The notes under the pieces were generated by a model, which worked only from the letters and a program-made list of their open reading frames with translations, had not been told where the DNA came from and ran no database searches. The position numbers were made by a program, and so were the translations under genes. Below are positions 5,898 through 54,095 of a DNA stretch of 64,000 nt, one piece after another; positions within the stretch are counted from its first letter, which is position 1; every line of letters begins with the position of its first letter. The DNA is from Terebella lapidaria (Eukaryota; Annelida; Polychaeta; Terebellida; Terebellidae). Location: the NCBI GenBank assembly GCA_949152475.1, contig OX424570.1:16736694-16800693 (forward strand), in the 5' to 3' direction.

Positions 5898-5899
5898 GA

Positions 5900-24400: not shown

Positions 24401-27400
24401 GGGGAAAGTGACGAGACTTTTCACGGGAAATTGTGGGTTTTTCATAATTCAGAAAACCTGACTACCTTGTGAGGTTGTGACTCAGAGAAGAAATTTTAGG
24501 GTCATTATATGAGGTCACTTATATAAATGGATCGCTGATAAAAGGAGCAAAATGATAGCAGACAGGAGAAAATAAATAAGGAAAACTTGTGTTGTGTCCA
24601 TGACACACATCTAAATTTTCACTATAATGAACTTCTTATCATGACATGTATTTGATTGTGTCCGATCCTCTGAACAAAAGAGCAAGTTCAACTAATTCCA
24701 GATGTGTTTTCAGGTAAACTTACTGTCGCTTGTGGTCGGCATCACCACCGTTTCCATGGCGTCCACATCCTGGGGGGTGGCGTTAGGGGTGGGGGGCCAT
24801 TCCGGCAGACTGCCCCCCTCCCCCGCCCCCTCAGAGCTCCCCTCCACCCCTTCATCTAAGGAGGAAGGGGGTGTCGTAGGCGCCTTGATGTGGAAAACGT
24901 TTGCATTCGGATTGAGACTCGTCGTCTTGGTCGCTGTGGTAACCTGGAATATATGCAAAATGTACGCAAACTTTATAAATCGTCATAATTTCTTTTTTGT
25001 GAATACCTGAAAGCAAAACAATTTTTGAATGCACAAACTGTACCAATAATTCGATACAGTTTTCAAACAGTGGTTTTAAAAAATCAAATGGGTTTAGTCA
25101 CTATATATTTCACTCTTTGGATCATAGCACCCACACACTACATGAGCGGATATTCATCTAATCGTGTTCACCTTCCACGTAAAGTAAGAAAACCTATGAT
25201 AAATCCGTCCACGTCACTGTTGTACATGTGCATGTAAGCTGACCTGTCTCATTCAACACTCAGGTTTGCATCAAAGTAATCTTTGCGCCTATCAATTCCA
25301 GGCACGGAACACGTCTTATATCCTTGACATTAAATGTTCTTCCACGATTATTCCCACCCTTGTGTGCGAGCGTGACACAAGCGTACATTTACGATAATAC
25401 AAATGCCGTCCCACGGCTAAAACTCATGCCGATTATGGATAAAGTGGCTGTTGGATATTCGTCCGTCCGTTCGTTTGTTCGTTCTTTGGACATGGTTTCA
25501 CCATGTATAGTAGCAACATCACTGGTGAGTGTTTATAGGAGTTTGTGACCTTGACCTTTATGGATAAGCCTCTTTCGCACGACTTAAAAACGGTGGGAAG
25601 AAATGGCACATGTTGTTGATGCGGAGAGGCTTTAAAATGTGATTAGTTGATCGCCTGCCCTTGTAATCGTCATATTTTTCCATGTGTACGACTCTCTTCG
25701 ACGATATTAAAATCCTACTCTGATGTTGTGATACAGGCAAAACTTGCTTTGAATTGGAGGGTACAATCGATAACAAATTTCTTGAAAACACACTTTTAGG
25801 CTTTAGGGAGGCGATATTGCTCATTGAAGTATGTTTTCAGTTTGGGTGAAAACAGGAGATCAAGAGGAAGAAATATGAACTTGTTTGTAAAGTATTCAGT
25901 TTCCACTCCTGGTTTTAAAGAATCAACTCACAGCACGCAGCCATGGAATACTGTAAACGTATAAAATTTCGCGTGTATCAATGTTCGCGTTTTCAACATC
26001 TCAACATGTTCACATAGATTTAAGTTTGCGTTTTCATGTTGGGCGCGGACCCCCAATTGAATAACCGTGTATTCGCATGTATTTATTTTCACGTTTTTTT
26101 TTTTTCAAACGCGAAATTCGCGAAATCAATACATCCCGAAATTTCATACGTTTACAGTACTAGTATAATAGTGAATTTCCATATATCTATAATTTTGAAG
26201 TGACCCCAATAGCCTGCAATGAACTTGTTTTTCGACAAAGACCTGTGTTCATGGTGTTTAGATTGAAAAGCATGCTCCAATGGTCAACCCAATCAAGTTG
26301 GAAACGAATGTCCGGAAACGAATTAAGCACTCCCAGACGATCAAAGATGCCCTAAAAACAAATGTATCCCGTCATCAACCCTACATTTCGGGTGGTAATG
26401 CCGAGACATTTTCCCCCCGACTGTAGCCAAGGCAACAACAACCCCATGACCCCCGCCATCACTCTAGGGAAAGGAAAAATACACCAATTTCGTGCAAACC
26501 CTCATGTATGGATGGATGGATACAGAAATGGAACAATGTTGTCACCGCGATCGCAGGTGGTCCAAATGGCCTCCCTAAATCTTCGTCCGGGACGGCGAGT
26601 TGTCCTGGAGTCTCGAGGTCTCTATTATACGCCCATTAGTGCCCTTCACCAGCCCATTATCTACCGATAACGCCTCCATCATCGACCGTCCCGTGGGTAA
26701 TGACTTCGGCGAAGACTGTAGTCCGTCCGTTGTAGCGAAAATATCTTGACTACCTGTTTTCATTGCTGGGAAATTTTGACGGATTTCATAGCAACCATAC
26801 AATAGCAAGGTGTTATAAAACAGATTTCTTTTTTGGCGGTTGTGAATCCATACTATTTACGGTATATGTATTTGACTAGATGTCATTCTGGGTTGACCAC
26901 TGCCATCTCATATGTGTCATGGTAAGTGCTGGATGTGTAGGTGATCTGAGGGTCAATATTGTGGGAGAGATCTTCATGTCAGGACCCCATTATTCTTTCA
27001 TCAAAGTCGTGAAGGTCGGTCACTGATTGCTTCCTGGTCAACGCATTAATCCCAAGCGATGACGAAAAATATTGCTCCGCCCCTTCATGCCCCATAAGCA
27101 ACCACGTCCACCATAAACAAAACCCACCCTATCACCATAATTTCTTTGGGGGGGGGGGGGGCATGGGGGGGGGGGGGTAGGAACCTAAGCAATCGTAGGT
27201 GGCTGTGGGGGTTGATGAGGGGTGGATCAAATCACAGGTGCATGAGAGTGAGATGCCATATTGCAAGGGAAATGAGATGAGGGAGTGTGGGGGGGGGGGG
27301 GGGTCATATAGATCTGAGTAATATCAGACTGGCATGATCCGAAAAGCTGAACACATCAATGAAAGGAATTACCACAAGCAAGACAATGGTATATCCGACT

Positions 27401-30400
27401 GGGCTGAAAACCAAACTAGATCCAGCATTAGCACCCCCAACAGTCGCAGATATTACTTGTCAACAACATGCAACAGGTTGTTACATACTCCACAATGTGG
27501 TGATGTTTCATGTCTTATTATTCATACTCCAGATATATTTTTTGCTCATGCCATGGCAAACTACATGTATATAAGATTTCTATCCTGGTGATATATCCCA
27601 AAGTGGAAAAGTCAAGTTGATTTTTATATTTTTATTCATGCTGATATACAAAAGTGTAAAAGTTTCTGAATGAGACTTACTCCATTATCTCTATGCAATG
27701 ACACTCGAAGGAATTTGCTACTCGTATATAATAACTTTTTTTTCAGGTTTTATATTTTTATCATGAAACTTTTTTTTATAACGTGTGATATTGCAGTCAA
27801 TTCCATGAATTCCCTGTGTGAAACAGTATAGCTCCGCGGAGAGAAAAATAATTCAATTTCAAGAAAGACAAATTAATTGAAATAGTGATACAAAAGTCGA
27901 GACAGATAATTTTTTCTGTCAGGTATCAGAGTGAATTGGAAACTGTCTTTCACACCTGATCAAAGCCCCTTGTTTCCCAAAACACATACATTTACATTTT
28001 AATAATCACCTACTCTGACGGACCAATCTTTTATAAAATATTGAAAAAATTTCAATTTGTTTTGCAAAACATACCTCACGGTATAGACCACATTTTCTTG
28101 CGAAATATTGCACACCAATGCTTTGTATATTATCAGATTCAATACAGATATGTACACGTATGATTCATATCCCTGTTTAGCGCACAGTAGAGAGTAAGTC
28201 CGAAAGGGCTTCCTGGTTGCTATGGCGACCAACGAGTTGCTGCTGAAATGGCTTACGTGATGGATATAGCTATGATATTAAATATGCTTTCGAGGACATA
28301 GCTCACAGTGAATTGTACCACTGGTGTTGATGCTTTTTATATTTTTATACAAATTTGTTAAATCGCAGAAGGGACTGGTTTTCCTAATGGGGTTGCTTTT
28401 ATCATTATCATCTTTCATATATATTCGTCACAGCTTTGCTGGGAAGGGAAGCGAAAGGGGGCATATTTGGAAAGAACTTGGAAATGATGATAAATGTTTG
28501 TTACATAATACGAACGGAAAGCTCGAGGGGGCTTTTTGCTCACATTTATTCAACACCATTTATCACATGAATCTACAAGAGGAAAAATTTCAGCGGAAAA
28601 TTCGGTGGCAAATAGGGGTCGATAACCGAATCCGACATAATTTTCTCTTTTTTTTTTCCCCGCTGTGGCAAACATGTTTAATGTCACGACTGTGTTAAAT
28701 GTTGCCTTATATTTACCTACAGAATATCTTGACCGTTTTCCTGACAACAGCTAGGCACAGGGCAATAGTAATTGGCAGCGAGCCGCATTGACATTATTAA
28801 AGGACATGTATGAGTGTGTAAAAGGAAAGGGGTAGCAACGATAGAAACTAGACGTCAAGGCCTAAAGATGCCTTGGAGGCATTTCGGTGTGATGAATAAT
28901 TTATAATACTAGATATCGACGAAAATGAAAAATGTCGACAAATTTCGGGTCAAGGTCAAAGTTAATCCATAATACCCCTTAGACATGTTTGTCTAGGGCG
29001 ACGAGTCCGAAAGTAACGTCCGTTTCGCTCTACGACGCACCGTTTCCGAGATATCGACGAAAACGAAAAATGCCGACTCGGCAAAAAAATTTCGGGTCAA
29101 GGTCAAAGTTCATCCATAATACCCCTTAGACATGTTTGTCTATTGCGACGAGTCCGAAAATAACGTCCGTTTCGCTCTACGACGCACCGTTTCCGAGATA
29201 TCGACGAAAACGAAAAATGCCGACTCGGCAAAAAAATTTCGAGTCAAGGTCAATGTTCATCCATAATACCCCTTAGACATGTTTGTCTAGTGCGACGAGT
29301 CCGAAAACAACGTCCGTTTCGCTCTACGACGCACCGTTTCCGAGATATCGACGAAAACGAAAAATGCCGACTTGGCAAAAAAATTTCGGGTCAAGGTCAA
29401 AGTTCATCCATAATTCCCCTTAGACATGTTTGTCTAGTGCGACGAGTCCGAAAATAACGTCCGTTTCGCTCTACGACGCACCGTTTCCGAGATATCGACG
29501 AAAACGAAAAATGCCGACTCGGCAAAAAAATTTCGGGTCAAGGTCAAAGTTCATCAATAATTCCCCGTAGACATGTTTGTCTAGTGCGACGAGTCCGAAA
29601 ATAACGTCCGTTTCGCTCTACGACGCACCGTTTCCGAGATATCGACGAAAACGAAAAATGCCGACTCGGCAAAAAAATTTCGGGTCAAGGTCGAAGTTCA
29701 TCCATAATACCCCTTAGACATGTTTGTCTAGTGCGACGAGTCCGAAAATAACGTCCGTTTCGCTCTACGACGCACCGTTTCCGAGATATCGACGAAAACG
29801 AAAAATGCCGACTCGGCAAAAAAATTTCGGGTCAAGGTCAAAGTTCATCCATAATACCCCTTAGACATGTTTGTCTAGTGCGACGAGTCCGAAAATAACG
29901 TCCGTTTCGCTCTACGACGCACCGTTTCCGAGATATGCAGGATGAATCAAGGATGACTCAGCAAAAAATTATTTCGACCTCTAGGTCAAAGGTCGTTTGA
30001 GGTATCGATCCCAAAATCAATAGGGTTCTTCCCTGGTGATATATAAACCTCCGTGCAAAAATTCTGCAACTATTGCCTGAATATTTTTTGAGTTATCGTC
30101 CGGAAACCAAGTTCCTCGATTTCATCCTCACGGACCTCACGGACCTCGGAGCCGGATCAAAAAAAAAAGTACACCCTAGAGATGTTTGTCTAGGGCGACG
30201 AGTCCGAAAATAACGTCCGTTTCGCTCTACGACGCACGGTTTCCGAGATATGCAGGAAGCCTCAAGGATGAATCAGCAAAAAATTATTTTGACCTCTAGG
30301 TCAAAGGTCGTTTGACGGATCGATCCCAAAATCAATAGGGTTCTTCCCTGGTGGCATATGAACCTCCATGCAGAGTTCTGCAACTATTGCATAAATATTT

Positions 30401-30594
30401 TTCCAGTTATCGTCCGGAAACCAAGTCTTAAAATTAGCCTTGATTTCATCCTCACGGACCTCACGGACCTCCGATCCGGCTCAAAAAGAATAGGGTTCTT
30501 CCTCATATCATTTCTGACTTGCGGTGAAAATTTGACAAGGATCCGTCAAGGCAATCTAAAGTTATCGTCCGGAAACCAAAAGTGGCGGAAGAAG

Positions 30595-30628
<34 letters not shown>

Positions 30629-33600
30629 CTGCTAAAACCATAAAGGCATTTCTGCCGAAATGCCTTAATAATGTCAATGGTATACAGTAAGGTCAGGTTT
30701 ATGTCGGGTGGGTGGGTGGGGGGGGGGGGGACTCCATGTTTATGTGGGCATCAAGACACGACTACAGTACAGGGAAAAGACGATATTGACCATGGCGGCT
30801 AAATGCCATATAAAATATATGCGGGGAATCGCCGGTGATAAATGGCACCAGCCCTGGAGCAAGATATTGATGTGGGCAGTCCATCTATCGTTAGCCATTG
30901 GCCGCTGGTTTACTTTAATACTCAGTGGAAATGGAACGGATTTCATGTTAGTTCTTCCAACTCGCAAGCTTTCATTATTCTTTTTTTCAAACTTTTTGGG
31001 TTGCGAGTCGACTTCGGCATGGGGAGAAATGTCAAAGCAAAACAAGATTCTCGCAAACTACCGTCCTAGCCCTTCATAAAGTCCCTCATCTACAGCGGCT
31101 ATAAGAACAAACCCTAGCCCATTAATCACGTTAATTTACATCATGATGTAATTTTCAAGTGGGTTTTTTCCCTTCTTCTCACATCCACATGCAAATGCGG
31201 ACATCTTGAAATTCCTCTGGGATACAGACAAAGAAATCCGCCACCTTGCGAAATAAATCCAATCAGGTAGCGATGAACAAATAACACCTAGGTAGCCTTA
31301 TTTATTATTCATTCTTTACCGAAATGTGATTACTATTCAATTACATCTTATTATTCGTAATGACATGGGCAGCTTTTTTCCAAACGGAGAATGTTTAATT
31401 TTCATTGCTTGAACATACAAGTCAATATTCTTTTGTTGCTAGAAACTACCTAGACCCTCAGGCCATATTTCTCAACCGGTACGGACGAAAATTTGCGAAA
31501 AGATAATCGTGACCATATTTCCGTAGAGGAGAATTAGATGACGTTGTGGGGAGGAGAGGGACGTTTGTAATTTTAGCGTTGTCGTCAATTCTGTTATTTC
31601 CGGGGGAGCTCAGTGGTGCAGTTACACTCTTCAATATCGTCATCTAGGCGAAGATAATGGGGGGGGGGGGGGGGGGGGGGCTAGCGGGACTCTGCAAGTC
31701 AATTTCTGTGATGTACGTACACTTTGGCAGTAACATTATTAACATTCTCAAGCCTAGTACAAATTTATGCAGTAGTGTTCTGAGAAGTGATTACGTAATC
31801 CTGCGCAATATCGTGAATAACACATGCAGTACTATTTCATGCAATTTGCAAATACTGGACTTTTTCATAGATATGGTAATTTAGGGTTGTTTGGTGGGGG
31901 GGGCTGATGGTGTCGGTCACCATGGAATTGTGAGGTTGATTACCTCCCGTCGACCTCACACCTGTTGTTGTGCGACTGTACCGGATTATTCTAATCGACA
32001 CCTCACCGGCCAAATATTGCCAGTATTCAGATGGACACCCTTGGCTCACGCGGCTACGGTAATGAACCATTAATAACATCCCTTGCGCGTTGCTGATAGG
32101 CGTTAATGCCTACAGGTCAATAATCATACGGTATTGACTGCCTCATGGCCACTAATATATGCAATAACGGTTATAGATGAATAACCCTTGCACCTTGCGT
32201 AAATCCATATATGTCAATCATGAATGGCAAATGCTGGTAAGGCGTGGGAAGAGGGTTCAGCAAGAGATTAATGGTAAACACGTCTAGTTCGTTGCATCAC
32301 TTGATCAAGGCAGAATCAACGATTGGCCCGCTGCTCAATGAAGCCTTTGGATTTATTTGCACATCAATTCACAAGGTGCTGCATGTTATTGGTGTCGGCG
32401 ATATAAAGTCAATATTGTGTCTGTGTATAATTCATTAGCTATCGAAGCTTGTTACGCGAGATTTTTTTCACAGTTGAGTTTTACTCGAAATGAGAGTGCA
32501 GGGGGAATTGGCATTAGCTTGAGAGGGGGGGGGGGGGGGGGGGGTTACTACGCCTTAGCAGATGGGATTGATAATAAATGTTTTATACGGTGTAATAGTG
32601 CTTGTAAATAAGATGGTTTATAACCCACTCAACCTGAACAAATAACTCGTAGTGGTTGACTGGTAGGACCGGAGTAAATGTATCACTATATCTACATGTG
32701 GTACTGGTAATGTCCGACAGTGAATATTACGAGATCAATATTTCAGTTCATGTTGCATCAGTTGTCAACATGTCACAGCGATACTTAGAAATTTCCCCGT
32801 AACTTGCCACTGTTAGAGTATGATCTGCATGATTAATATGGGCTACGGTAAATCATACTTTGTCAAGATGGACAGCAATATTGCATCATTTTCACATGCA
32901 ATTGACATTTGGCACGAAAATTTTTTAGCTTGAAAAGTTGCCTTACTAGTATCTACTAAAAAGAAAGAATATAACTGACACCTGTTAGCTGAAATTTTTA
33001 TAAATTCTTGGCATGAAATGTTGCCTTATCTGTTGAAAACAAGACTGCAAAATCACACCAACCCATGAATGCACAAAACATTGACACCATGATGAACGTA
33101 CAAGACAACATAGATCCTCACCGCTGATGGCTTCTTCTGCTTGTTCCTCTGCACACAGAGCACGTAGGAATTTGCCGAGAAGAAATACACGTCTCCAGGA
33201 TTCATATGCTTCCAGAAATCCGCGTCTTCTTCTGTGACCGATACCTGAGCTGCGATTTTCAGACAACTTCCGACGAACGCGAACTCCTTCAGCTGGACGC
33301 GGAACTGCAGGGAAGTTGGACTAGCAGGTGTGTCTGGGGCGGTTGACGTTGTTGAGCTGCCAATGACCGCGGGAATCGTTGCCGTGGTGTTTGGAATGGT
33401 TGCCAAGGGAATGTGGTTGGTCGGTGCGTAGACTGTTGCTGTGGAACTGGTGCTGCCATCTAGGGAGTATCCGGAACATTCAAGTGACGATGTTGCGGAA
33501 GTATCACTTGGCTGTTCAGTTGTCGATTCTGCAGCGACACTTTCTTGCATCTGAACAGTTTCGGCACTCAACGAGAGATCTTGCTGGTGGTCATCTGGTG

Positions 33601-36600
33601 AGTTCTGCGTGGATGTTACACCTTGCGACAGCGTACAATCCAGGGGTAGAGTACACTGTAGTGGTGCGATCGTGTTGTACACCCCCGCTAGGATACTGGA
33701 GCTATCCGGAGCGACGGGGGATGAACAGACAGAACCGTCTGACGTCTGGACGACAACTGGCCCTGTGGCCATTGCTGGGTAACCATGGGGACAGGTATGG
33801 ATCCCCGCGGTGGGGACAACGGGGTCCATCAGTGGACCGTCCCCTCCCGGCCCCATGTACAAGCTGCTATCCCGGTCTTCGGCATAGACGCCATCGTACG
33901 ACAGCTGGCTTCCGGGGGAGAAGTTTGGCGGACTTACGAGGCCGACAGGTGCCTGGGAGTAGCTCAAAGTAGCGATGCCATCCACTGTACTGTCAGTGTA
34001 CACCACGGTACTCTCCTGGCACTCTTCATTGCTGAGGATGTCTTCAGAGTAGGCGACCATACCGTCCGAGCTGTACTCGACGATTGGTATGGGCTGGTCA
34101 TAGGTTTGTACGTAGGTCGTGTTTGGGTTGTAGGCGAGTGCGTAGGGTTCCGTGGGCGGCTGTCCAGTAACCGTTACAACTGTGGGGTTGTTCAGACAAG
34201 ATTTCCTCGGCAGTTGCATGTCAAAGTCTTCTTCCAGTATCCCAGCACAGGAGACCACTGAGCTGCCATGGTTACCATACTGGTCACCATGGCTGCTGTT
34301 GCTATGGTTACCAAAACGTACCCTACGTTTGCGCTGGTTGCCAGAGGCAGTTTTCCGATTGGAAGTTTTCGAGTCAGCACCGATCTGATCCAAGTCTAAG
34401 GTGTTCGTTATGTTTGCGTCTGTATCAGTAATGACAACCGTACAAGCTGCTCTTGACTTGCCACCGGCATTTCTCAAGTGTTTCAAACTTTTGCCCATTG
34501 CTCTATCAACGTCCCTGAAGCACTGACCCTCACCGTCACTGAAAGTGGACGATGACGAAGACCACGCATCGTCCCCATGAGTTGAACAGAACTTGGAACG
34601 AGTGGGCCCAGCGCGACTACCGCCATCTCGTCGTTCTCGACCCACACGATACTTTCTAGTCCGAACACTTTCCTTATCACCATGGCGACTGAGCCTGTCC
34701 GCCACTAGTATAGCAGAATCCACTTTAGCTGTGAAATTTGAGTTGTCCGTTGAGATCTTTACGTGGGAACTTCTCGCCACGGCTCCGGATGCCACAACAT
34801 TGTGACCAAATCCAGACCGGTCGTAACATTTATCCCGATCGTGGTCGGAGTCAGTGTCACTGTGAAGCTCGGAAAGTCTATGATGAGATTTTATCGCAAC
34901 GATCGCCACCTCAGTTTTTCTATCAGTATTTGTTAGCCGCTGTGAGTTGTATAAGTCCTTCCTAGATACCCGCTTAATGGCGGATTTATTAGCTGAAACC
35001 TTGTCGTTATCACTGTCATCGTCGCTGGACGTTACCACGGCAACAGACTGGCAACCTTTCCTGGTCAATCTCTTAATACCAGTGGAGTACGCATTATGAG
35101 CATCTTTCCCTTCCGACGATTTGCTCAGGGCACAGCGGGAAGCAGACGTTTTCACTACGTCTCGCTCCACAGTCACCTTATCTAAAATATCCGCAGCTAC
35201 CGTCACAGAATCACAACCGTCCGAGTCGTCATCCGCGTAGGATTTAGCACCTGTGAAACTAGACACTCCCTGGTGCGCTAGAGATAATGACTGATCCCAG
35301 CTGCTGCTACAACTTATATCCTCATTAAGAGCTCGACCTGGCGACCTATTTTCCTGGACTTGCGTCCTATCGTCGGGTTTATCTAAATCTACACCTACAC
35401 CACATTTGGTCCCATGTGTTTGATTATCAGCAGATGAAGTCAAAGTTTTCGTCATGGTAACCGGGGAGACGGGCTCCTTGGTGACCTCCAATTTGGTATC
35501 CAAAATACATTTATTATCTTCTACTTTGAAACTATTTTCACAAGTTTGGAAAGCACCGGTTTGGGTTGTGAAATTTGTGACAGCAGTGGCTTCGTGCACA
35601 ACCTCTGAAGTTCCACGTTTACTTGTTGGAGAAGGCGACACGCAAATTTTATAGTCCTCGTCTTCGGAAGTTGCGCCATCTGAATCGAGACTGAAGAACT
35701 CATCCGCATCTGAATCACTTGACCCTCCATCACCATGACAAGGAATGACCTTGACCTTGACATTCGTTTCACCCCAGGTCATGTTCTCATCGTCCGATAA
35801 ATAGTCGAGGTCCGTGTAGCAACTATCCGAACTCGGCGTCAATTCCCAGGATGCACCACTGTCGCCGGGAGGAGCCAGTGACGGAATGTCATCCATAACG
35901 GCACCACTATCTTGGGTGTGCTCGATGTTGACACACGTATTTTGAACACATGGGTGTGACTGAACACAGGGCTGGGGATTGGCGTTCAGATCATTCTCTT
36001 TCGGAGAAATCAGGATTTCCGTCGTGTGTAAATTCGACTCCTCTTCGCCATCCGACACTGAAGTACTCCGAATGTTTTGATCATCGATGGCGTCAACATC
36101 GGTATCATGTGACACCTCATCCGTTGATGCAATAACAGGCAAGATGGGCTCGGGAGGCTCGTCGACAAGTGGGATTTGAGCTGTCATGTCAACAGTTTGG
36201 TCCGATGGAATAGTTTTTTGGCACAGCGTATTATCCACACTTTCAGAGTCCAAGCACTCACTCACACTAACGTCATGGCTTTGGTTTTTGGAATCGCAGT
36301 TAATTTCACTCTCCAGAATAACCATCTCACAGTTCGTATTGGAAGCCTCCGTGGCTTGTTCAGTTTCTGAGACACTTTCAGTTTCTGCAGTAGCACTGGG
36401 AACTTCCACTTCGGGAATATCCACCGTGGGAATTTCCACCTCAAGATTTGCAGATATGGATCTCTTAGAGTTTGTATTAGAAGAGTTTGTATTAGAAGCT
36501 TCTGTGGCTTGCTCAGTTTCTGAAACACTTTCAGTTTCTGTAGTAGAACTGGGAATTTCCATCTTAGGAATTTCCACCGCAAGATTTGCAGGTATGGATC

Positions 36601-39600
36601 TCTTGGAGTCCGAGTCAGAATCCTGATCCCAGCAATCAGGAACTTCATCCGGATCACTCCCCTTAGATCCTGGAGGATCCAACGGCGTCAACTGTTCACT
36701 TTCTGGAGGACGCTTGTCCTCAAATTTGGAGACAACCAATGACGATTTTCCAGACAGCACCTTTCCAGTTCCATCTTGACCAAACTTTTTATGATTTCGG
36801 GCCTCAGATGGTAATTTTCTACAGAGAGCATTTGGCAGTCTTGCGAGAACTGGGTCATTTAGTGAGGCAAGCGTGGTGTTACCCGTTACATGGTCACCAA
36901 TTACTTCTGCTTTTGGTGGCAAGCCTTTATCCAATTGTCTATCATGTTTGCTGGAATTTCCTTGAGAAGTCTTTCGACGCCTTGCTACTCTCCTGTCGTT
37001 TTTGGCGTGTGGTTTCTGTGACAGTGTGGTCTGGTTTTTGTCAGTTCTTGTAGCTGTTTCTGCTGGCTTTGTGGATTCACTGCTGGACTGTTTTTCATCT
37101 TTTGTGATGTCCTCTGACAAAATGGAGGGTGATGTATCCTCAGTTAGTGGTCGTTCCCTTTCAACAAGTTCCTTCGATGAAGAACTGGTATTTTGACAGT
37201 CGGTTTTGACAACACCCTGGTCTTGAGATGCACGCTCTGTATCCAAGGTAACCTGCTGCTCAACAAGCTGGGTTACAGAGTCTGTATCCACAACTGCCTC
37301 ACAATTTTGACTGGATTCTTTTGTTTCTGCGGAATAAATCTCACTTGCATTATCCATTTCTGACTTGATTGGACCATCCTTGCCCTTTTCCACTGGATTA
37401 GAGCAATTTTCATTCCCAGATATGCTTTCAGATTCTATTTCCGCAGTTCTACTTTCAGTATCATGAATTCCAGATATTTTACTTTCATTATCGCCGCTTT
37501 CCTCACACAAGACCAAAGGTGCCTCCTCAACAGGTGCCATGACGAGGGTTTCAGCAGGTGCTTCAACAGGTGTCCCACCTCCCTCGTCCGATGACGACGG
37601 TTCTGAGACAATCGACTCCCACGAATCTGGAATCTCGTCAGGCGGTTTTGGTGCCAAGGACTGCCCACAGGTGGCAGTGTCGATCCCTGTGGGACCTGCG
37701 ACCTTTTGGGAAAGTCCCGAGACCTCGGAGGTCACTGCCGGGGAGTCCATGAGTGGTTGACCTCGCTTGTTTGGACCACGGACAGGTTGCGGGACCTCAA
37801 GGTCAAGTCTCTGGAGTGAACCAACGTCCCATGTCAATGGATTTAGGTCACAATCGTGTGGTGATCACATCCTAGGTGATCACATCTTGTATTCCTTTTC
37901 CACTTGTGAGCGTCCATGCGCAATTACTTCGTCACGGTCTTCATGATACACTTGGAAGCTGTGACCTTGGACATGATTTGACGTAAATCAAGTCACGTGT
38001 CCCACAACACTGAACTATGCTGGAATTAACCGGTGCGTGAACGAAAATTAATGTCAATAAATATCCCGCTAGAAAGCAAGTGACGTCCGTTGTTGGGTCC
38101 CCATCACAGTGGCAGATATATATAGCACAGCGATGGTGGCGGGTGAAATGCACTCTAGGTATGAGGAAAGTACAGGGGAAAAAAATCAATTCCTTGTTGC
38201 ATTGTGGCCTTCGGACCGTTGTCGTCGTCGTCATCGGACGGTGAGATTCACATGGATCCGTTGCATCAGTACATTTATCTCTGCCGACCAGTGCGATGTC
38301 TCCCTTGTAAAGGTCAAAGACTCATCGGATCAGTTCGGCTTCCTTGCCTCTCCCTGTCGGCGCTGTGATGGTAACCACCGTGTATGACGGGAGACACCTG
38401 TCGATTTAGTAGGAAGTCATAGCCCGTTGAACCGATAAAATGCCATTTATTGCTCGCTCCTGTCCCTTGGCATCCACGGCTCGTCACTGACTAGACCCCA
38501 CCGCAACATTTTGCAGTCCATATCATCACTGGCATCATCAGAGTGGAGGGTTTGAATCAATCTCCGCTGAGATTACAGGTGTCAAATAAATCCAACCTGC
38601 CAAGTGGCTACCTGCCTCCGGGCAAACGTAGCTAGTCCAACATGGATGCAAGAAGTCTAGGGCTCTTCTCTAGACAATCACAGACTCCCGTCACTCAGTA
38701 TACAATATGCCACAGTCACCTGATGACTTTTGCTGTGAGGTGCACAATGGCAGTGTGTTGGTATACCAGTGGTATATATGGCCCTTGAATTGTCCTCGCA
38801 GCTACATGTACCAAGGCAATGGAATTATCGGCTACTTCGTTCCCAGTCTCAGATATTATCGCGGCTAGTGACGCCGACCACCGTACTGTAGGTGATAAAT
38901 GAGCAAATGAATGACTTGTGGTGGTTCACTGGCAATCCAATGCTGATATCCATCCAAACAAAATATTCTCATCAGGCAGCGTCCGAATATTATATTCCAA
39001 TCAATGAAAATGCTTTGCTCCCCCTCCAATAGTGATTTTTTCCATCTCTCTATGCTCATGCTTCGGAAACAATAACTCCTGATTTGGGTTTTTACAACGA
39101 GATCCACATGGACGCATAAAAAATCCCTGATTCACCCGCGACGAAGCGTGGACAGAACAATGCGACTAATCCTCAATAAAACATCTCGACAGCGAGATCC
39201 CGGGTGATCGAATTAACCCGATCATTAATAGCCATATGGAACGATTTGTGTAATGTCAGATCCAGCAGCCCCACTCTAGAGCAGACACTCACACAGTTAC
39301 TGTCACATGTCTAGCACAGGGGCTGGTAGCTTGTCGGTCCGGTCGGGTGGTGGCTTGGCAGCGGCGGCGGTGGAATAGCAACTGTGGAAGCTGGGTCCAT
39401 GTCGTTGTCAGCAACGATGGCAGCAGGCAGGATGGGGTGGGGTGGGGTGTGTGTGTGTTGGGGAAGGGGGGGGGGGGGGATGTTGTCCCTGGTATACATT
39501 CTCTCACCCCCGTTCTTCGGTTGCCATCGGCGGCAGCGCTTCTCTCCCTCCGCTCTCGAATGAATGTCGTCAGCACTTAGACTGTTGCCGAACTCCCCGT

Positions 39601-42600
39601 CGTTACTATTTTTTGCGCAGTGCCTCACACTAAACACCGACTGAGTGACGGACCAACTGTCCAGCATAGTTGAGAGCACCGATGACCGCGGCACTGGTCA
39701 TCGACAGCCGGACGGGTGCCGCAAACCATCCACCGTCTTTGCCGACAATAACGGACATTACACAACAACCACCGACAGAGACGAGATCTCGACATCATGG
39801 CCTGTCAAAAGTATCCCGGCGGTCATCTTAGCCATTACCCCAATTGATCACTGCTCCTGCATGGAATCCACATATGGCAATATGTTTTGCTGTACCGGTC
39901 TCCCTTTCAGGAGTTCATATATTGACGAGAATAACGACCTGTGCTGCAACTGCGGACCACCTAGTTCATATATAACTGTCCATAACTGTGTAACATATGG
40001 CGGAGACAGTCGCAGTTTTCGCACTGACGGGACTCAGCAGGGGAGAGTGCTCAAGCTAATGGGGTTGGACTGGTGGGTGGGTGGTTTGGTTTGCTCCAAG
40101 CGCTGGACGCACGGACCGACGGGCGTGCCTCGTGCGTCTACCTTGGCTCTGGATGGACGGTTGTCGTTTTCTTCCTGATGTGTCTAACTCACATGGATAG
40201 CCGTCTGTGACCTAGTCACGGTTTCCTCTTGACATAGTACATCATTTTTGAAGAATAGCTTCAGAAAACGACGGAATGATTTACATCATCGTAGCAAGTG
40301 GGGCTGACCAACAAATCACAAGGGTGAGGGGGTGGGGGGGGGGGATGAAGAATCGCCTTGGAACAGTCTGGTACATTGCGAATTTGAGTAAAAAAAAACT
40401 CACGTAAGGACGTGGGGATATTTTTACGCTAGATATATATCTGTCGGATTAGCATCAAGTTTTTTCTCCATTGAGAAAATCCTCACGCTGCTACGTCAAT
40501 TCTTGGTATTTTGATGAGTTTTCGGTGATGTTCACAGCAGCATTTCAAACTGTTCCAGTACATTAAGATCTTCCAAGTTTCGTTTGTGGATAGATTGAAA
40601 CACGATGAAGACGACTAAGTGCATTTGCTTGTGTCGTAGGGTTTTATGTCATGTCGTAGGGGCGCCGAACATGATGCCCGTCTTGGTATAATTGACTGTG
40701 TAATTCAGTGGATATTCGCCAGGTGGCAGGTCAATCAGGTTCAAACATGTGCGTGGCAATTATCGCACGTAAAGCCGTGGGGTTTGTATGGGTGACAATG
40801 GCTTATTTGACAATGGCATTCATGATCAGCTCACTAAATGTGGGGCCAGACCTGATTTATGGCAGCAACCTCCCGATTTCAATCTGCTATTTCACGAGAA
40901 GTCGTACAAACTTGCTTGGGATTTATCTAGAGTCAACCCCCAACAAGTTTGTGTAAGGCAATTTTTTTTTTTCATTTCCACATTGATGCCCGTCAGAAAA
41001 ATCCTAACTCGAACATTTTGTCACTAGTTCAGGTAAGAAGATTCTGCGTAAAATTTGCCGACATGTGCCGGCCTGGAAACAAGGGGAAAGTTGGCATCTT
41101 GATCAAATGAATTATTCTCAGGCACTCTGAAGAAATCTGTTCAATAGAATCGGGGTATACTGTAGGATACTATAGGTTTATCTCAACGAAACGACGCGCT
41201 ATGTCATGAGATGCGGACTGCCAGAATCAACACGTGACATCCTGACATCGGGCATGGACACATATACTGATATATATCGTTTGTCAAAAGTATGCATGAC
41301 AGTATATATGTATATATATAAATATATACATATTTTGCCGGAAATTCAACCACGACGCACAACCTCCCTGGATCATCTCAGACTTTTGCCGAAATGTGTG
41401 TACGTGAACAATCCATGGCTGATAGGGCTGTGCGAGTCGATGTTGGGGGTGGGGATGATGGGGGTGGGGGATGTGGGCGGGACGGCGTGTAGCAGAATGG
41501 CTGGTTATAAGCGTGTGTTTGATTCTGTGTACTGACGAGGGGGCGGCAGTTAAAGGGAGAGAAGACCAGAGGGGACGCCGCTCGTCCGTCCGTCCATCCA
41601 TCCGTCCATGTATCACTGCAGCCAAAAATACATAGGAGAGATCTCTCATGTTTTTCTGTTGTTGCAGATGCATATAATGTATGTTTGTACATTTGTAGGA
41701 TGCACGTGATTTGGCCGGACGAGAAGCCGGCTAGTGGCGTGTGCATTGTATGTTTTCTGGCCAACTTCAAGGTCTGCAGTTCTCTCTCGGATTCCCGTAA
41801 GAGAAATTTCGCGACAGAGCCAACGCAGGGAAGACAAGACAACAGCCCATTCAGTTTTCAGACACGCAAGGAACCTGAAGAATTGATCCAGTGGAGAAAG
41901 GTTTTCAGATGATGTACATGGTATGCGAAATGGAGTCATTACCGTGACCCCAACCGAGCTTCCCTCATTTACGATAACTGATCCATTATCATGCTGGGTC
42001 AAAAAGTTTATACGCTCTAACCATAGACAATACACAAGGCCATTTGGTACAAATACACATTACGCGTTGAACCAGAAACCCATAAGCTCTTATGGGTTTG
42101 TGGTTGAACTTATTTCAGTCGTTTTGAAGTTTAATGGTCAGTGCCAATAAATTTATATCGTTGGAACCAAATAGCTAAAAAAAAAATAGTAATTTGAATG
42201 ATGCACACGAGGTGTATATATAGACATAATGGTGTATAATTTTGCCTTGGCTTGTACATGTACCAACGACTAAATTTGGAAATAGTGGTGTGCTCGCCAG
42301 AATTATGATAAAACTGTGCACTGCATGTGCCTCTCATAATGCAGCTATATGTTTGGACATCCATTGGAATCCCAAGAGTCCCCGCAGAATCAGATTGAGA
42401 ATATATATATGAAAGGTTTTACATACAAACTAAGTAACAAGTGGATAGGAGGGACAAAAAAACAATTAGCATGTGAAATCAATCAAGATGGACGACAAAA
42501 AATGAAGTATTGAACCAAAATGTACAATGTAATACTGTGCAATTTTGTTGTGAATCCTATACATTGTAAATGGTAGAAATTATGGAATGAAGTTCGATCA

Positions 42601-45600
42601 ATGAAACCAGAAAAACGTGAGAGACTCTTTATGTATTTCTGATGAAACCTAATATTACAGTTTACTCCTATGTTCCATAAAAGACAACACACCAGTTTTA
42701 CATGAGTTTGACCAAATTATTTCAGTTCTCACAAAATATTGGACAGTATACTAGTCTTATTGGGTCACACATGTGTATCATCGAACTGTTACAAATATTA
42801 CACAGTGATTTGTGCAAAATGTGCAATGATGATAGAGCTTGCAGCGAACTTTCAACAGGCATTTCAGTACACTGTACAGTCAAACTACTACGATTGACGA
42901 TGTGAACATGTAGATCCGTTAACGTTTATTATCAACAGGCACTATTAGACAACATACTCGTAAAATGAAATGATTGGTTACTGGTATTACTCAACCGTGA
43001 TCTGTTTGTTTCATTGTTATGAACAATTCAGTTGCTCTTAATAGTATACTAGTAGTTTATTTACTCTAAATGCATAAAATGGTAACACATGGAGTAGTAT
43101 GTTTTATATTATTGTAAGAGGAACAAACAACTGAACTCACTTCAGTAAAACAATTCAATTTTAGTTTCCCCAATAGGAAAAAAATTGAATGTAGTAGTTC
43201 TGTAGTAGATAATTTACCAGAGAATTTTCATTACTATATCATATTCCAACTTCACTACAAGAGTCGACTTGGATCCATTCTGAAGCGGCTGATGCTGTCA
43301 TACTTGTTCCATTTGCTGGCGGTATATAAACTTTTGACAGGGTCGAAACAGAAATCTGACGCAATTACATGAGCTTTTTACTCACGGATTACTCAACGCT
43401 TTCATGATGACTAGACACTGATGTAACTGTGTAAGATCGCCAAAAGTTGAGGACAATACATATCCAAACAACATTCATCACTAGTGTACGGTTAACTCCT
43501 TCGTGAATGGAAAACGTTGGTTATCAAGAGACTGATACTCAGCAACATCGAGTAGAGCTGTCCATACTGACTTCAACACCTTAACCCTGCACATCGTATG
43601 CAGAAACCAATAGGGAATCACAAGTACATATACATGTACGTGTGTTAACCTTCGCCCGACAGTTACATTTGAATTGATTTGATATTTTAGAATATATATC
43701 TAGAGAAGATTTACATGTAGGTGACTTGACTCAATTGTTATGTACAGTTTTCAATAAATCGAACAAAGTGGAAAACGTGTGGTAAAAAGGAACACAGTCT
43801 CCATTTCCTTATAATCCATTAATATGTAGGCCCTCTACGTATCTTAACAGAAACTCGTAGAACATCAATGTGTCTAAAAAGATTATACCTGAGTAACTTT
43901 TGATTCGAGTTGAAGATAGAAAACTGCAACAAATATCATGACAGAGCAGTGTTCACATACATGTACATGTATCTGAACGGACAGAGGGAGAGATGGATGA
44001 ACGACATCTTTCAAGCCCACAATATATTTCTGTGGAGAAAGGGTCAGTGTGTATCATCAACCTTACCTCCAACTTCACACACCCAAACATACATGAAGTG
44101 CTTGCTGCTCAGAGAAACCTGACCAGTAAATCCAGCATGGTAAGTATTACAATTTGATCAAAAGAGGTCATTTCATTTTCATATCCCTTGTACATTCAAG
44201 CAGAAACCCATCTCTCTTATGGGTTTCTGAGTCAAGCAAATCCATTCAATTGTATTCGATGAGGAAATCCCCAATACACAGCCAATAAATTCACACTTTA
44301 TTGTATGTTTATTTTCACATACGTATGTTTATTTACAATACCAAATTATTGGCTGTGTTTCGTCCCGTTATACGTTAGTGGCCCATACAGTCTGTCCAGG
44401 ACTCGTCAGTTGGGTGCAGACCATTAACTTGAGCCAATCCTTCACTATCGTGCAAACAGCAACAAATTTGATATTTTATGGATAAACTGATCCAAAATAT
44501 TCAACAATTGAGTAATTTGACATGCACGTTTACATTGAACAATTATTTTGATCATTGAACGTGTCATACTGAAACAAAATCTTAAGTAATCAGTGTGCTC
44601 CAAATGATGTAATACTTAATTAACATGCATACTCTCCCACAATCGATGTCTTAAGTAATAAGTGTGCTACAAATAAAGTAACACTTAATTAACATGCATA
44701 CTCTCTCACAATTGATGTCATAAGTAATAAGTGTGCTACAAATGATGTGAAACTTGATTAATTAACAAGCATACTTTCCCACAATTTGCCAGGGTTTTTT
44801 TCCCAGGGGCGTTTGAAGACAATTTGACCAAGAAAAGTTTCTGTGGGGCTTAACTGCACTCTCCAAAATAATTGTTAACTACCATGATAACGGTTGATAA
44901 CCATTTGTCCAAAATTTAATATAAAATATAAAACATAACTTGTGTTCTTTGCAAACACCAAATTTCAATATTCAAGGGTAAATTGACTGATATTTGTATA
45001 AAATATCAGTCTATATTCTAGATAGTTCCATAGTACTGGTATGCTTAGTAGTCTCTGTCATTGTTGTAAAGATACCATTTGTGAAGGTACAGTATCAATA
45101 TATATACACATCATTTGCTTCTCAAATGTACGATTTATGGCACTCCCTGCCTCGACAATACGCGGCCCTGTGCAAGTCTGTACATTACTGTAAATGCATG
45201 TGAATACTGCACACACAGACGGATGGATGCTCTGTTGCCAACGAACCCTCCCATTCACCTCCACAGTTAATAGGCTACAGGGGTGATGTAACCATTCTCT
45301 GTGCTGGCAGAGATGGGGGGGGGGGGGGGGGAAGGTCGTATGCTGACATACTAGTCAAAGCCTACGATATTTGAAGGACTGTTTAATTTCCCGTTAAATA
45401 TAACTCCAGGGGTTCTTCAGGCTTTTTCCAGGGGTGGGTGCGACCCTAATAAATATTTATTGATGAATGTGCATTGAATGTTGGATATTGATACATGTGG
45501 GAGGCGGGTGAGGGAGGGGGGACACCATCTGGTTAATTGTTCATAAGTTACGACGTAGTTTATCTGCTTAGCCAATGAAAGGCTGTTCTTGCAAACCTCA

Positions 45601-48600
45601 CTCCCCTCTCCCCCCCCCCCCCTCCACACACACACACAAAAGCACGAGGATGAAAATGGCGAATATTGGATACCAATCTTCCGATCTGACACAGTCGAAG
45701 TGACACGATGCCGTCAAGATTTTTTGAACTGAACATTCTGTTTTAAATAGGCTAGCTTGCAAAGACAGGTCATTATGTGCACGGCTGATATGAACTTGTT
45801 TCAGTTGGTGGTAGACCGGGAAGGTGAGGGGAAGGGGGTTGATTTGAACTACTAGTGGCAGGAGAATCTGGCAACTAAGCCGGTGTTAGATCCCGCCCCC
45901 ACCGGAACTGTGAATAACAAGCCGTGAAATTTGTCCACCGCCAGGAATCACATATATAGATACTTGTATGTTGAAAACAGTTGCAAATCTAACGATTTTG
46001 CGTGGTGTTCTTTTGACTGATAATATTCCTGTATTGCGCCATCTGGTGAATGTATTTAGCATTGATGTAATTTTGGGCAATTCATGGACACCTTGATCGC
46101 AAGTGCTGCCTCTGGCGGGAGAAAGAATCTCCTGCCTAACCGACAGGAATTTATCTAGCGTAAAAATATTCTCACGTCCTTACGTGAGGTTTTTTTTTCT
46201 CAAATGCGCAATGTTCCAGACTGTGGAAGGGGAAGAAAGCCAACGGTCAAAGCATTAACAACTGAGAGTATCAAGTGACCTTGCTCACCGGCTAGCGGCC
46301 CATTGCATGATGGGAAGTCCTCTATGTACCCGCGCCATTGCCAGTGAGCAAAGCCCACTCGCTCCCTGCACTTGTCTTGTGTCAGTTTGTCACAGCTATC
46401 TACCTGCAAACAACCTCCCCCTCCCTCACCGCTGATAATCTAGAATCTAGGAAAGGGGGGAGTGGGGGAGTGGGAAGAAGCGAGATTAATGAGAAAACAA
46501 TGAACGCTGGCAAGCTGAAGTGACAGGGAAAGAACAATAGAAGACTTCCACTGGCGATAATTAGTATGTAAGAGGCATTACAGGGAGGCCACGCTGAGGC
46601 CATTTACGTAATGTATTTGTCAAATGAAGAAAAAAAATGCTTTTGTGGACAACCAACCGTAGTTTTTTTGTTTTTCTTTCTTGGAACTGCATTTACGAGA
46701 GGAACGGTAGTTATAATAAATAGAAACAGGATTAGGTAGGTTTTTTTTTTTACCCGTCTACTTCTGCGTGATCAAATATAATAAGCTTTATCAAATTTAG
46801 CGGACTCCAATGAACGAGAAGAGTGATCGCTAAACACCGACGTCCTTCAGCTCATGGCGGTAAACTATCATTGACATTTCTCGATAGCTTCTCAACCGAC
46901 CATCGTCAAAACTCTTCACACGACTAATATCTGGCACAAAAATAGCCGTCTGCAAAAATTTTAGACTTTTCAAGTTGTCCTTTAGGGGAAGCACTCTCAT
47001 GGCTGTGCTAAAGTGAACATGGTGAAGATATGTACTATTTCTGCATGTAAGATCAAACAGGTGAAAAGCAAGGCTTTCAGTTGCATCAATGGTTTGTTAG
47101 TAATTGTGTAGTCCCGCTGGTAAATATATCCAAAGTGCTATCAATTTTATATCTTCATTCAATAACGGTATAATAGATATTTACCAAAGTACTATGATGT
47201 TGTGATATATGCGAAAATAGTAATGTATTATTGAAAACAAATTATATGGTAGGCATCGCTCATTTCATGCAGGACAGCGTCATCTTTTGAAGAAGATATT
47301 CAAATCACAACATCAGTATACTAGAATGCACTTTCATCTCCCCAAGAATAATTTGAATTGGAGGTTTTGTTCATCCGAAAAACTCAGCTCAACTATGCTT
47401 ACAAAATTGTATTTCTGACACATGAATTCAAAAAGAATTTAGGTTCACACTTCCAGTTTCACATCATTTTATAGAGTTCCTTCATTCTAAGTATTATTAT
47501 TATTATTATAGGAACCAAAGATACATGCACAAGTAATATTCATTATTACTAATTACATTTACTGATCTAGACCTGTGTAATTTACATGCAGCTATTCTCT
47601 GTAAGCTTTTCTTGTACAACTTTGCAGTATAAAAGTGCACCTGTGGGTTTTCAACATGGCAGATATGTGTAGAAGTCTCTCCATAGTCTGATTGAACATG
47701 TTGAGCAAATTTATTCACGTCCGCAAACAAATCTCGTAATGCGCTGGGACAATTAAACAGAGTGCTCAACAATTTGCGGTCCAGGCAATTATTAATTGGT
47801 TGCCATGGCAACTTGACGATCATGATATATACTGGGTACGGTAACTTTTCAGGTGATGGCAAGATAAAACCTTTGGTTTGTTCTGGTGAAAAAAATTGCA
47901 CCGTTGTATGTATGCCATGTGACAAAATATGTCATGACTGTGCATATATCATCTGAAAAAGTCAATTAATCAGCCTGACTAGTTGGGAGTCTTTTTTTTT
48001 CTGGGGGGGGGGGGGGGGGGGAATAATTTATTTTTGAGGAAGAGTCTACAGGAGTGTATTTTCATCTTGTGACTTTAAGTGATTCATTCCTTAGACTTTA
48101 GTCACAATGTTGTTTGGTTCGTATCTCTGTGAATCATTATGTGCGATGCATCTTAACATGCATAAAATAATTTTCATCCAAAAAATTTGTTTTTTTTTCT
48201 TCGGGAATTTGCACAATGGACAAAACAAGAGTCCATAATGAATGTAATGAAATATATCTGATATGAACATTACGCATAATGTACCATCACTTTCAGAATC
48301 TGAATCTGAGCAATGTGAGTGATGCATTAAAATATCGTATTACGTTGAACAGTTGAAATGTTCAGCCTTTCTAGAGATATTTTTCTGCTATATTACATTA
48401 CTTAGTATATGCCTCCCTTGAGGTACGTTGACACTGTACAAGATCTGCACATTTTTGTATTACATAACGATTAATGAAAAACAACACTAACAGAAATATA
48501 CCATTACATAATTCAATCCATTAAATGAGTTTTCCCTTTTTCAGGACAATAATCTACCCTTCGCTCCCAACTCTTCCTACCCGCACACCCCCACCCCGCC

Positions 48601-51600
48601 CCCCATCTGTGCGCTAATTTTATTTATACATGGAATATCTACTCCTGAAGACATATCCAACACTGCGACTAATTTGCGATGTTCACCGTCATCTTTCAGG
48701 TTACCCTGGCAACCAATTGTCACATTATTCACCGGAAAGACCCCACACTCCACCCCCCAGTCTTGCACATACACCAGTCGGCCGCATACTGTTGCCATCG
48801 GAAACTACCTCCAGTGGGACACACAACTTGAGACGAGATGAAATGAGCAGCCATCGTGCCCCCTTACCGGCCATCGGGGGGAAATACAGATCTAGCCCGC
48901 GTTGGTTCGTAGAGACACGAATCCATGAGCGGCATCAAAGGTATCAAGCAAACAGACTAGAGTCACAGACATAGTTACTTGTCGACTAGGCAAAATGTCA
49001 GGTGACTGCATGAGGGGGGTGAGGGAGGGGACCTCCCAGTTGCGAGACGGGCTGCTGGACGCACCATCGTATGAAGCTGTGGCAAGTTTTATTCAGAGCC
49101 TATTCTCCACTAGTCTTCCGTATTCCAAGCACATGGATTTCGAGTAATTGCATCTGCGGGAGGAGGCGGCGCGAAGCTCGCTTTTACCTGTTGACGAGCG
49201 AGCGGCCAAGCAAGCCACATGCCACCTAGCGCTGCTGTAAGGAACTAAGACACTAATGACTTCTATGCGGCCGGGATTCTACAACATGTATGCATAAGAC
49301 GTCAATCCCACTTGGCGACTTGTTTCCTGTCCGCGATAAACAGGCAACAAATGGTAGGGACTCGGGCAAAACCTGTGTGGGTGCTATTTATTGCGCAATT
49401 CATCATTTACGAGCACACGACAGTAGACAGTGTGAATGACCTTGACCTTTGGCCTTCCATGTTGACCTTTTGTTTCAGATTGATTTATATTTTGCTCTAA
49501 ATGCCGTCTGAAGGGAGTGAGTGAGGAAGCTATTTTGAAGCCATAATACCCCGAGGAATAAATGACGTAAAACGTGTCGTGTTTCCCCTAGATGCCAGAT
49601 CCAGTCTCTGTGTCCCTTCTACAGCTGCCACTGTCATGCAATATCATAAAAGACAATACAGTTGCAGGAAGCTGCACTGCGGAACCTGTAAACAAAGATT
49701 ACGGGCATAAAAACTAATATGGAAGCTCTGCTCCGTGTCAGCTAGGCAAACGGACGAGAGAAGAAAAAAATATTGAGGTAAAGATTTGTACTCTTTCTGT
49801 ACACAAGCCAATGTACAAGCAAACACACAGTGTTCAGCATCCTTGCAATAAGGTGGGGCGGGGAAGGGAACATAATATTTGATCAATTGTCAAAGCTTTG
49901 TCATGAATGGAACACATTTTATCCGCACCAATCCACCAATCCCAAGGTCCTAAATTGATCAATTGATATTACACCCCTCCCCTTCATCCCCCACCAAGCA
50001 CACTGCCTGGAATTGTATGGGTGCAGTGCTATATTAAGTTGCGTGGGAGTACGGTATCACACAATGTGATTTTCAGCCTTTCTTTTTGTTGCTTTATTTT
50101 CGTTCATTGCAGTTATTTTTGGCAGCTATAGGATGTAATTTTAAGGGCATTCAGGGTCGATTCTACTCGGCATAAATTCTGCCACTTTACCCGTTGTTTG
50201 AATTTTCTACACCCTAATTCAATAAACGTCGCCCTCAATCTCCAACTGTAATGAGGTTGAGTGTCCAGATAACCGTACCATATTTGTCAACAAGTCAACG
50301 AGGAGAAGAGTTCTCTCATGATGATGGATGGAATATAAAGTTGTTGGACACATCTTCTTTTCAAAGAGATATATTTTTATTTTGAATTTTTGGTGCAGTT
50401 GAATCGTTGAAGGTATTGTAGAATTTCTGGATGCATGTGGTGCCAATGTCCGATTTAGGAAAACTAGTTAGTAACTTATTTAGATGCGCATGATGTATAC
50501 GATAACAAGTATCATGATATTTGATTGGAATAGCTGCATTTTCATTATCCCCATGGAAAATGCAGGTACAACTAATATCCTACGAAAACTACCAAGTCTG
50601 GACCGTCAATGCAGGAAGGGCGACAAAGTTATCACTGTTAGAGTAACTACGCGTGTTCCTTCATCGCAAAAACTCAGACAGTCAGTTCGGCAGCGACCAT
50701 GTGACCTCCGGCAAAGGGGAACATTGATTATCTCAAATACGGACCCCTCCCTCCCGATAAGGCGACTAAAAATAACTCGGGGGTTCGATCGTTAACATCA
50801 CTAGTGGCAATATATGGAGCAAGAATGGGGGATTTTTTCCGCGCTTTTTTCCCCCAGTTTTGATAAGTTGCGTACATTTATACGGGAGCGAGTTATGGCC
50901 GCGGAGTGGAAATTTTCGTCCGCGATTTGACGTTTGCGTCCATGGGCTTTTCCTGCTCGAGCAAATGGGAGGGATATCGACCACACTGCACGCTTCGCTG
51001 AACCACTTGACTTTTTTAAATGTCGCCAGACAATTTATCGAGCTCGTTTAACTAGGGCATACGTTGAGTCAATAACAAATCTGGATTCCAAGAACGCGGC
51101 CTTTCGCTACTATAGATACTAGTATAGCCAAACCATATATGAAAGACTGAGCACAAGTGCTGATCCATGAACTATTTAGACCCATAACATGCATAGATAT
51201 AAATGTATGCCATTTATTGTTCACGGGGTACAGGCATGTTATATGTATGACGATGGTGCAGATATCTAGTTGGATGATTAGGTTCCATGGGAATTTATTG
51301 CAGGACAAAGCTCATGAAGATGAAAGGTGAAAATCATTTTTTTTGGGTCGAATCACTTCTGAAGGAGCAAATGCATATCCGGTTTCCTGGTGAAAATTTC
51401 CTGTGGTTTTCCAATGGATGAATGCATCATGGAGATTCACGCGGTGAATGATATGGAAAAGCAAAGTTCTCGCAACAAATTTGTCAGGTTTTGCTATCAC
51501 CATCAATGTCTCACTTGATGGTCCAAACATTTTTGCTGTTTATCATGTTTATAGTCCTACTTAAACTTTTCAGTCCTACTTGAAAATTTATGGAGCCTGC

Positions 51601-53724: not shown

Positions 53725-54095
53725 CTGTAAACAAATCGTTACCATGGTTACTATCTATCAGAGAAATGGTTGCCAAGGTTACTGGAGGCTAAGATCTCAT
53801 TCATGGGGCCAACAATCTGTAAACAAATTATTACCATGGTTACTATCTATCAGAGAAATGGTTGCCAAGGTTACTGGAGGCTAAGATCTCATTCATGGGG
53901 CCAACAATCTGTAAACAAATTATTACCATGGTTACTATCTATCAGAGAAATGGTTGCCAAGGTTACTGGAGGCTAAGATCTCACCCCGGGGGCCAACAAT
54001 CTGCAACAAATCATTACCATGGTTACTATCTATCAGAGAAATGGTTGCCAGGGTTACTGAAGGCTGGGATCTGTAACAAATCGTTACCATGGTGA
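53692..54095. repeat. 92-bp minisatellite that includes the LARP4 exon 1 splice acceptor
   Basis: Units start at 53,692, 53,784, 53,876, 53,968 and 54,059 (last partial), spacing 92, 92, 92 and 91 bp. The first unit overlaps the first 33 bases of exon 1 and its acceptor; the others carry copies of that acceptor (TTTGTTTACAG-ATTGTTGG or near variants) and of the exon start. Each unit also has a GTTACCATGGTTAC half-degraded X-box. Confidence 0.95.

Follow-up and report, generated by a model that had tools for sequence, protein, structure and literature searches.

The stretch of DNA analysed here, 64,000 nucleotides of contig OX424570.1 from the terebellid annelid Terebella lapidaria (the window, to which all positions refer), carries on its minus strand the gene LARP4, whose 28.7-kb first intron contains a giant open reading frame (ORF) in the same orientation. 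A preliminary description of the window had proposed that this ORF serves as a cassette or alternative first exon of LARP4, or else forms an independent, nearly intronless gene. We find that the ORF looks genuinely protein-coding, with purifying selection on its frame, and we lean somewhat towards the first proposal, in which it would constitute one giant coding exon of LARP4 (37,810–33,122), used either as a cassette or as an alternative N-terminal exon.

LARP4 and the open reading frame in its first intron

The host gene was rebuilt as 15 coding exons (53,688–12,004) encoding 1,029 residues, and its identity as LARP4 rests on a La module and an N-terminal PAM2 motif. A Pfam search recovered the La domain (PF05383, E 2.9e-21; no RRM family at E 0.1 in that search), and human LARP4 6i9b is matched by the La module over query residues 10–168 of 174 (E 7.5e-65). 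The PABP-binding motif LNPNANVF in exon 2 fits the PAM2 pattern LNxxAxx[F/W] given in excerpts of PMC7356810, and at 24,893–24,916 it has the canonical Phe at the position held by Trp in vertebrate LARP4A/B (PAM2w). According to excerpts of PMC6486636, the vertebrate LARP4 PAM2w has this Trp, and in human LARP4A the W22F mutant binds oligo(A) less well, association with MLLE still being possible. The annelid LARP4 may thus use PAM2 to contact PABP without also binding poly(A) through it. Exon 9, at 15,521, appears to use a GC donor (CAG-GCAAGT).

Coding exon 1 is putative, and its score was 18.6 when it was excluded from training and 19.4 when it was included. Against first-order Markov resamples of 1-kb blocks, which served as chance controls for both the upstream and the downstream exon scans, a phase-0 initial exon as good as this one arose in 3 of 100 resamples of the upstream 26 kb, and the best plus-strand initial exon of any phase in this comparison reached 13.5. 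Adjoining exon 1 is a tandem array of a 92-bp unit (53,692–54,072, 4.2 copies), whose unit closest to the exon has sequence in common with the region immediately preceding the exon 1 ATG. Each unit holds a near-palindrome, ATTACCATGGTTAC, that we take to resemble an RFX X-box.

Translation confirmed the giant ORF at 33,053–37,750 (minus strand), with the 1,565 codons of the preliminary description followed by a stop, within a stop-to-stop frame of 1,603 codons (37,864–33,053). The remaining five frames of the same DNA contain 46–136 stops apiece, and, given the ORF's base composition, 1,565 open codons would arise by chance with a probability of about 10^-35. A codon model trained on the LARP4 exons assigns 0.177 bits per codon to the frame, and −0.352 and −0.473 to its shifted counterparts; the correlation of codon-usage deviations with those of LARP4 (0.679 in frame, 0.436 and 0.651 in the shifted frames) is not decisive. 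Selection on the encoded protein could be gauged from a single internal duplication, aligned with one gap placed by hand. Its 41 aligned codons differ by eight synonymous and seven non-synonymous changes, with a synonymous rate (dS) of 0.34 and a non-synonymous rate (dN) of 0.08 (Fisher p = 0.008), and the resulting dN/dS of 0.23 indicates that, ever since the duplication arose, selection has acted on the protein encoded by this frame. The final 18 codons show six synonymous and no non-synonymous changes; read in either other frame, all these differences become non-synonymous.

Limits of the putative giant exon

The 3' limit is marked by the phase-0 donor GCG-gtgagg of the preliminary description, present with its last exon base at 33,122. 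Splice sites were scored with generic metazoan frequencies instead of values fitted to this species, and by this measure the donor reaches 9.1 (4.7–9.0 for the 14 LARP4 donors), a strength encountered in the flanking intron about 0.28 times per kb. The coding score, taken in blocks of ten codons, stands at +4.1 for the block ending one codon past the donor and falls to −6.0 and −5.0 in the next two. The 22 codons between donor and stop (Table 1) may be compared with random non-coding stretches of that length, which average −7.5 bits (standard deviation 7.1), and they score lower than the 20-codon block minima of the ORF body (−4.0) and of LARP4 (−5.8), both of these in-sample. This short stretch is probably intron.

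These observations bear on the nearly intronless nested gene, which would read through the donor to the stop at 33,053 and be polyadenylated just beyond it. The frame is indeed open that far, but its last 22 codons are not coding-like and a strong donor stands where the coding signal stops, so that this form of the gene seems improbable. The nearest AATAAA or ATTAAA follows the ORF stop by about 700 bp, at 32,357, a point of little weight because the interval around and after the LARP4 stop (12,100–10,500) contains neither hexamer.

At the 5' limit, the acceptor cactccag-AGA is present in phase 0, as had been described, although the exon would begin at 37,810 and not at about 37,814. It scores 5.2, where the 14 LARP4 acceptors span 1.9–13.8. 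The 20 codons from 37,810 to the first ATG (37,750) score 5.5, with a mean of −7.0 and a 95% level of 4.1 for random stretches and a mean of 5.6 for the ORF body. Coding-like sequence ahead of the first ATG makes it probable that an exon further upstream leads into the frame, and suggests entry via acceptor 37,810. With the coding signal ending at the donor and beginning near the acceptor, an exon of 4,689 nucleotides is defined. Its phases are compatible with the phase-0 end of the provisional exon 1 (53,620) and the phase-0 start of exon 2 (24,943), which agree with the preliminary description, and from this arrangement we infer that the junctions 53,620–37,810 and 33,122–24,943 are used.

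Table 1. Positions of the features discussed (window coordinates)
Feature	Position	Strand	Basis or score
LARP4 exons 3–15 (La module, C-terminal region, stop)	12,004–18,751	minus	La domain and 6i9b matches
LARP4 exon 2 (phase-0 acceptor, PABP-binding motif LNPNANVF)	24,724–24,943	minus	leave-one-out score 50.8
Frame past the donor up to the stop, not coding-like	33,053–33,121	minus	−10.3 bits over 22 codons
C-terminal 63 residues of the putative exon, perhaps a small domain	33,122–33,310	minus	modelled strand-strand-helix-strand-strand, low confidence
Putative giant symmetric coding exon, phase 0/phase 0 (4,689 nt, 1,563 codons)	33,122–37,810	minus	open frame, coding-signal limits, selection on the duplication
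RRVRF, the only RVxF-type motif in the exon product	34,313–34,327	minus	
Internal duplication	36,332–36,607	minus	41 aligned codons, dN/dS 0.23
In-frame stretch upstream of the acceptor, not clearly coding	37,811–37,864	minus	0.9 bits over 18 codons
Rival first exon of a separate gene, or 5' untranslated exon	39,508–39,667	minus	donor 8.4; scores 19.9 (ATG 39,667, phase 1) and 9.7 (ATG 39,527, phase 2, MATEER)
Putative LARP4 coding exon 1 (23 residues, phase-0 donor)	53,620–53,688	minus	combined score 18.6

Flanking intron sequence and competing gene models

No further minus-strand exon rises above chance in the interval separating the ORF from LARP4 exon 2, in agreement with the preliminary description and within the power of the test. 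For exons entered in phase 0 within 33,100–24,945 (8.2 kb), the top score was 18.7 when internal and terminal candidates were taken together (median maximum 16.6, 95% level 22.0, 60 resamples), and 12.8 among terminal candidates (resampled median 12.5, 95% level 18.3). The level of 22.0 is exceeded by 11 of the 14 LARP4 exons 2–15, and a short terminal exon downstream of 33,122 could be missed.

Such an exon is what an independent gene, nested on the same strand in LARP4 intron 1, would call for: its promoter would lie at 38–42 kb, followed by one or two 5' exons at about 39.3–39.7 kb, then by the giant exon, and past 33,122 by at least one short 3' exon. We regard this gene as a real possibility, though the less probable one, and the separate gene of the preliminary description survives chiefly in this form, equipped with its own 3' exon. 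The 38–42 kb interval is GC-richer and holds the candidate initial exon 39,667–39,508 with its strong donor, and a chain that is in frame with the ORF can be drawn through 39,527–39,508, 39,381–39,307 and acceptor 37,808. The region 39,307–39,667 may accordingly be read as a promoter, as 5' exons belonging to the ORF or as its 5' untranslated exon; the CpG profile did not clearly locate a promoter. Same-strand nesting is itself known: about 63% of nested human genes are given as opposite-strand in excerpts of PMC3192792, citing earlier work, which leaves about 37% for the same strand, and both the position within an intron and the shared orientation recur here. Unlike known genes of this kind, the present one has no 3' exon of its own above chance, and its splice phases fit the host gene; the match at both ends would have to be a coincidence (about one in nine if phases were random, on our reckoning). 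Moreover, the splice sites of the 5' chain are weak: the piece 39,381–39,307, in phase 2 at both ends, scores 18.3 (11.7 from coding, 3.3 and 3.3 from its splice sites), a value uncalibrated against chance, and acceptor 37,808 scores 0.8. In its phase-1 version, the candidate 39,667–39,508 fits neither the main acceptor of the ORF nor LARP4 exon 2. Among upstream initial exons that can be joined in frame (phase 0 or 2), LARP4 exon 1 is the best, followed by 48,935–48,868 at 13.7–13.8.

Nor did the intron yield a credited Pfam domain in the parts scanned, namely 24,946–33,120 and 37,864–54,200 on the minus strand, and 24,950–34,000 and 37,500–47,400 on the plus strand. Six matches were returned, five of them under the curated cut-off. 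A match to DUF3306, at 25.1 bits for a cut-off of 25, was rejected: it covers 24 residues, no single stretch passes, and it falls inside a tandem array of a 147-bp unit. This array (28,940–29,936, 6.8 copies, 97% matches) occupies a kilobase whose CpG observed/expected ratio is about 2.1, and it contains GACGAGTCCGAAA, which is reminiscent of a hammerhead core; a hammerhead ribozyme was not supported here, no Rfam family being found at gathering score.

A mobile-element ORF, a retrocopied ORF or a frame open by chance would be a very improbable source of the giant ORF. A possible element does exist elsewhere in the window, at 3,205–8,088 on the minus strand, where two long overlapping ORFs (1,627 and 758 residues) include reverse-transcriptase-like sequence; these we take to resemble a DIRS-type retrotransposon. 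For the giant ORF such an origin was rejected because convincing flanking repeats are lacking: within 30,500–43,000 no inverted pair flanks it, and such direct repeats as lie on both sides of it are either G-runs or weak matches that we attribute to chance. The whole ORF matched no Pfam family and no PDB sequence at E 1, in the protein-profile search that the preliminary description had set as a check, and a viral-contig scan returned 20 pattern matches and no relative. A frame open by chance faces both the probability given above and the purifying selection. A further tandem array, with degenerate 25/50-bp units, lies at the edge of the window (63,543–63,967).

Several observations weigh against assigning the ORF to LARP4. 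The G+C content at third codon positions (GC3) is lower in the ORF than in LARP4 (0.465 and 0.596), lying at 0.36–0.48 in six of eight ORF blocks and reaching at least 0.54 in 12 of 14 LARP4 exons, as a separate gene would allow. The top minus-strand initial exon of the upstream 26 kb is 39,667–39,508 (19.9), not exon 1, and the possible in-phase 5' chain starting at 39,527, weak as it is, would offer the ORF an entry of its own. Exon 1 itself is provisional, having a weak start context (TCCCTGATGT) and a position at the edge of the 92-bp array. With respect to the exon limits, acceptor 37,810 is modest, 0.19 equal or better in-phase AG sites being expected by chance in 114 bp, and a donor-like site as strong as that at 33,122 (34,534, score 9.5) lies inside the ORF. 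The coding signal near the C-terminus is uneven, with ten-codon steps of 3.4, −0.1, 3.2, −3.7 and 2.0; the last 59 codons of the exon total 8.6, where random stretches average −15.0 with a 95% level of 8.6. Finally, no such LARP4 form appears in the titles and abstract openings among the matches listed from the open-licence literature.

Even so, in our judgement, the phase match at both ends, the lack of a detected 3' exon and the coding-like stretch ahead of the first ATG together outweigh how rare a LARP4 of this form would be a priori. The proposal that the ORF is a cassette or first exon of LARP4 thus stands as the favoured one, and exon 1, as named in the preliminary description, is also the top-scoring initial exon of phase 0 upstream of the ORF; the lower GC3, the rival exons near 39.5 kb and the short terminal exon that may have escaped the scan temper it.

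Properties and possible role of the encoded segment

As had been noted earlier, the product of the putative exon is acidic, with 246 Asp and Glu residues to 137 Lys and Arg, and it is rich in Ser (13.6%) and Thr (8.9%); it is probably disordered. Its seven tryptophans include several in acidic surroundings. Two similar acidic Trp motifs within the ORF (33,122–37,810) might be short binding motifs. The sequence RRVRF matches the PP1-docking RVxF pattern. Searches with six pieces of the ORF gave three Pfam matches, all under their cut-offs (best E 0.063), and one piece gave three weak PDB matches that are not usable (best E 0.015).

The C-terminal 63 residues of the exon may stand apart from the rest as a small domain. 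An AlphaFold (AF2) model of the last 103 residues is poor, with a mean predicted local distance difference test (pLDDT) score of 50.9 and values mostly of 54–64 in the last 63, and it had no Foldseek match at E <=0.001 among 86 at E <=10. For these 63 residues no credible PDB, Pfam or Foldseek match was obtained. A domain at this point might also speak for the separate gene and against a LARP4 exon, if these 63 residues belonged to a larger domain whose remainder lay in an undetected exon of a different gene.

Should the exon be spliced as a cassette between LARP4 exons 1 and 2, its inclusion would yield a LARP4 of about 2,592 residues (23 + 1,563 + 1,006), in which the acidic, Ser/Thr-rich segment would directly precede PAM2 and the La module, and its skipping would yield the ordinary protein of 1,029 residues. 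Alternatively, the giant exon may be an alternative N-terminal exon, expressed from a promoter near 39.5 kb. In either case the segment could tune PABP or poly(A) binding, whether electrostatically or as a docking tail with RRVRF as a possible PP1 site. In favour of a LARP4 exon one may cite human LARP4A, whose N-terminal region around PAM2w is described in excerpts of PMC6486636 as semi-disordered and predominantly acidic, and as binding either oligo(A) or the MLLE domain of PABP in a mutually exclusive manner. By analogy, a giant acidic segment ahead of PAM2 would most simply modulate the choice between oligo(A) and MLLE, and add docking sites. Chances are about even that the 1,563-codon exon makes a 2,592-residue LARP4 in which it acts as a switchable electrostatic or docking module, one that would rival poly(A) in binding the N-terminal region and may also recruit PP1.

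With LARP4 and LARP4B the present gene shares the La domain and La module, a PAM2 near the N-terminus and a low-complexity C-terminal region. It differs in its length of 1,029 residues even without the giant exon, in the PAM2 Phe where vertebrates have Trp (excerpts of PMC6486636), and in the possible acidic extension of 1,563 residues before PAM2. The closest precedent for the latter is found in ankyrin-G and ankyrin-B, in which alternative splicing of a multi-kilobase in-frame exon produces giant and standard isoforms (excerpts of PMC5422562). Common to both cases is a symmetric, in-frame coding exon of several kilobases; the ankyrins are cytoskeletal scaffolds and not RNA-binding proteins, and alternative use of the exon, reported for them, is only predicted here. 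Thus, giant in-frame exons and same-strand nested genes are both known kinds of arrangement, and a giant form of LARP4 would, if true, be new.

Were the ORF instead to belong to a separate gene, it would encode an orphan protein that is under selection, its gene lying inside LARP4. If the two predicted junctions are used, a protein that protects poly(A) tails has a giant form, whose additional part adjoins the PABP-contacting motif, which in human LARP4A contacts poly(A) as well. Such a form would provide a natural test of how acidic disordered sequence controls the contact with PABP and poly(A).

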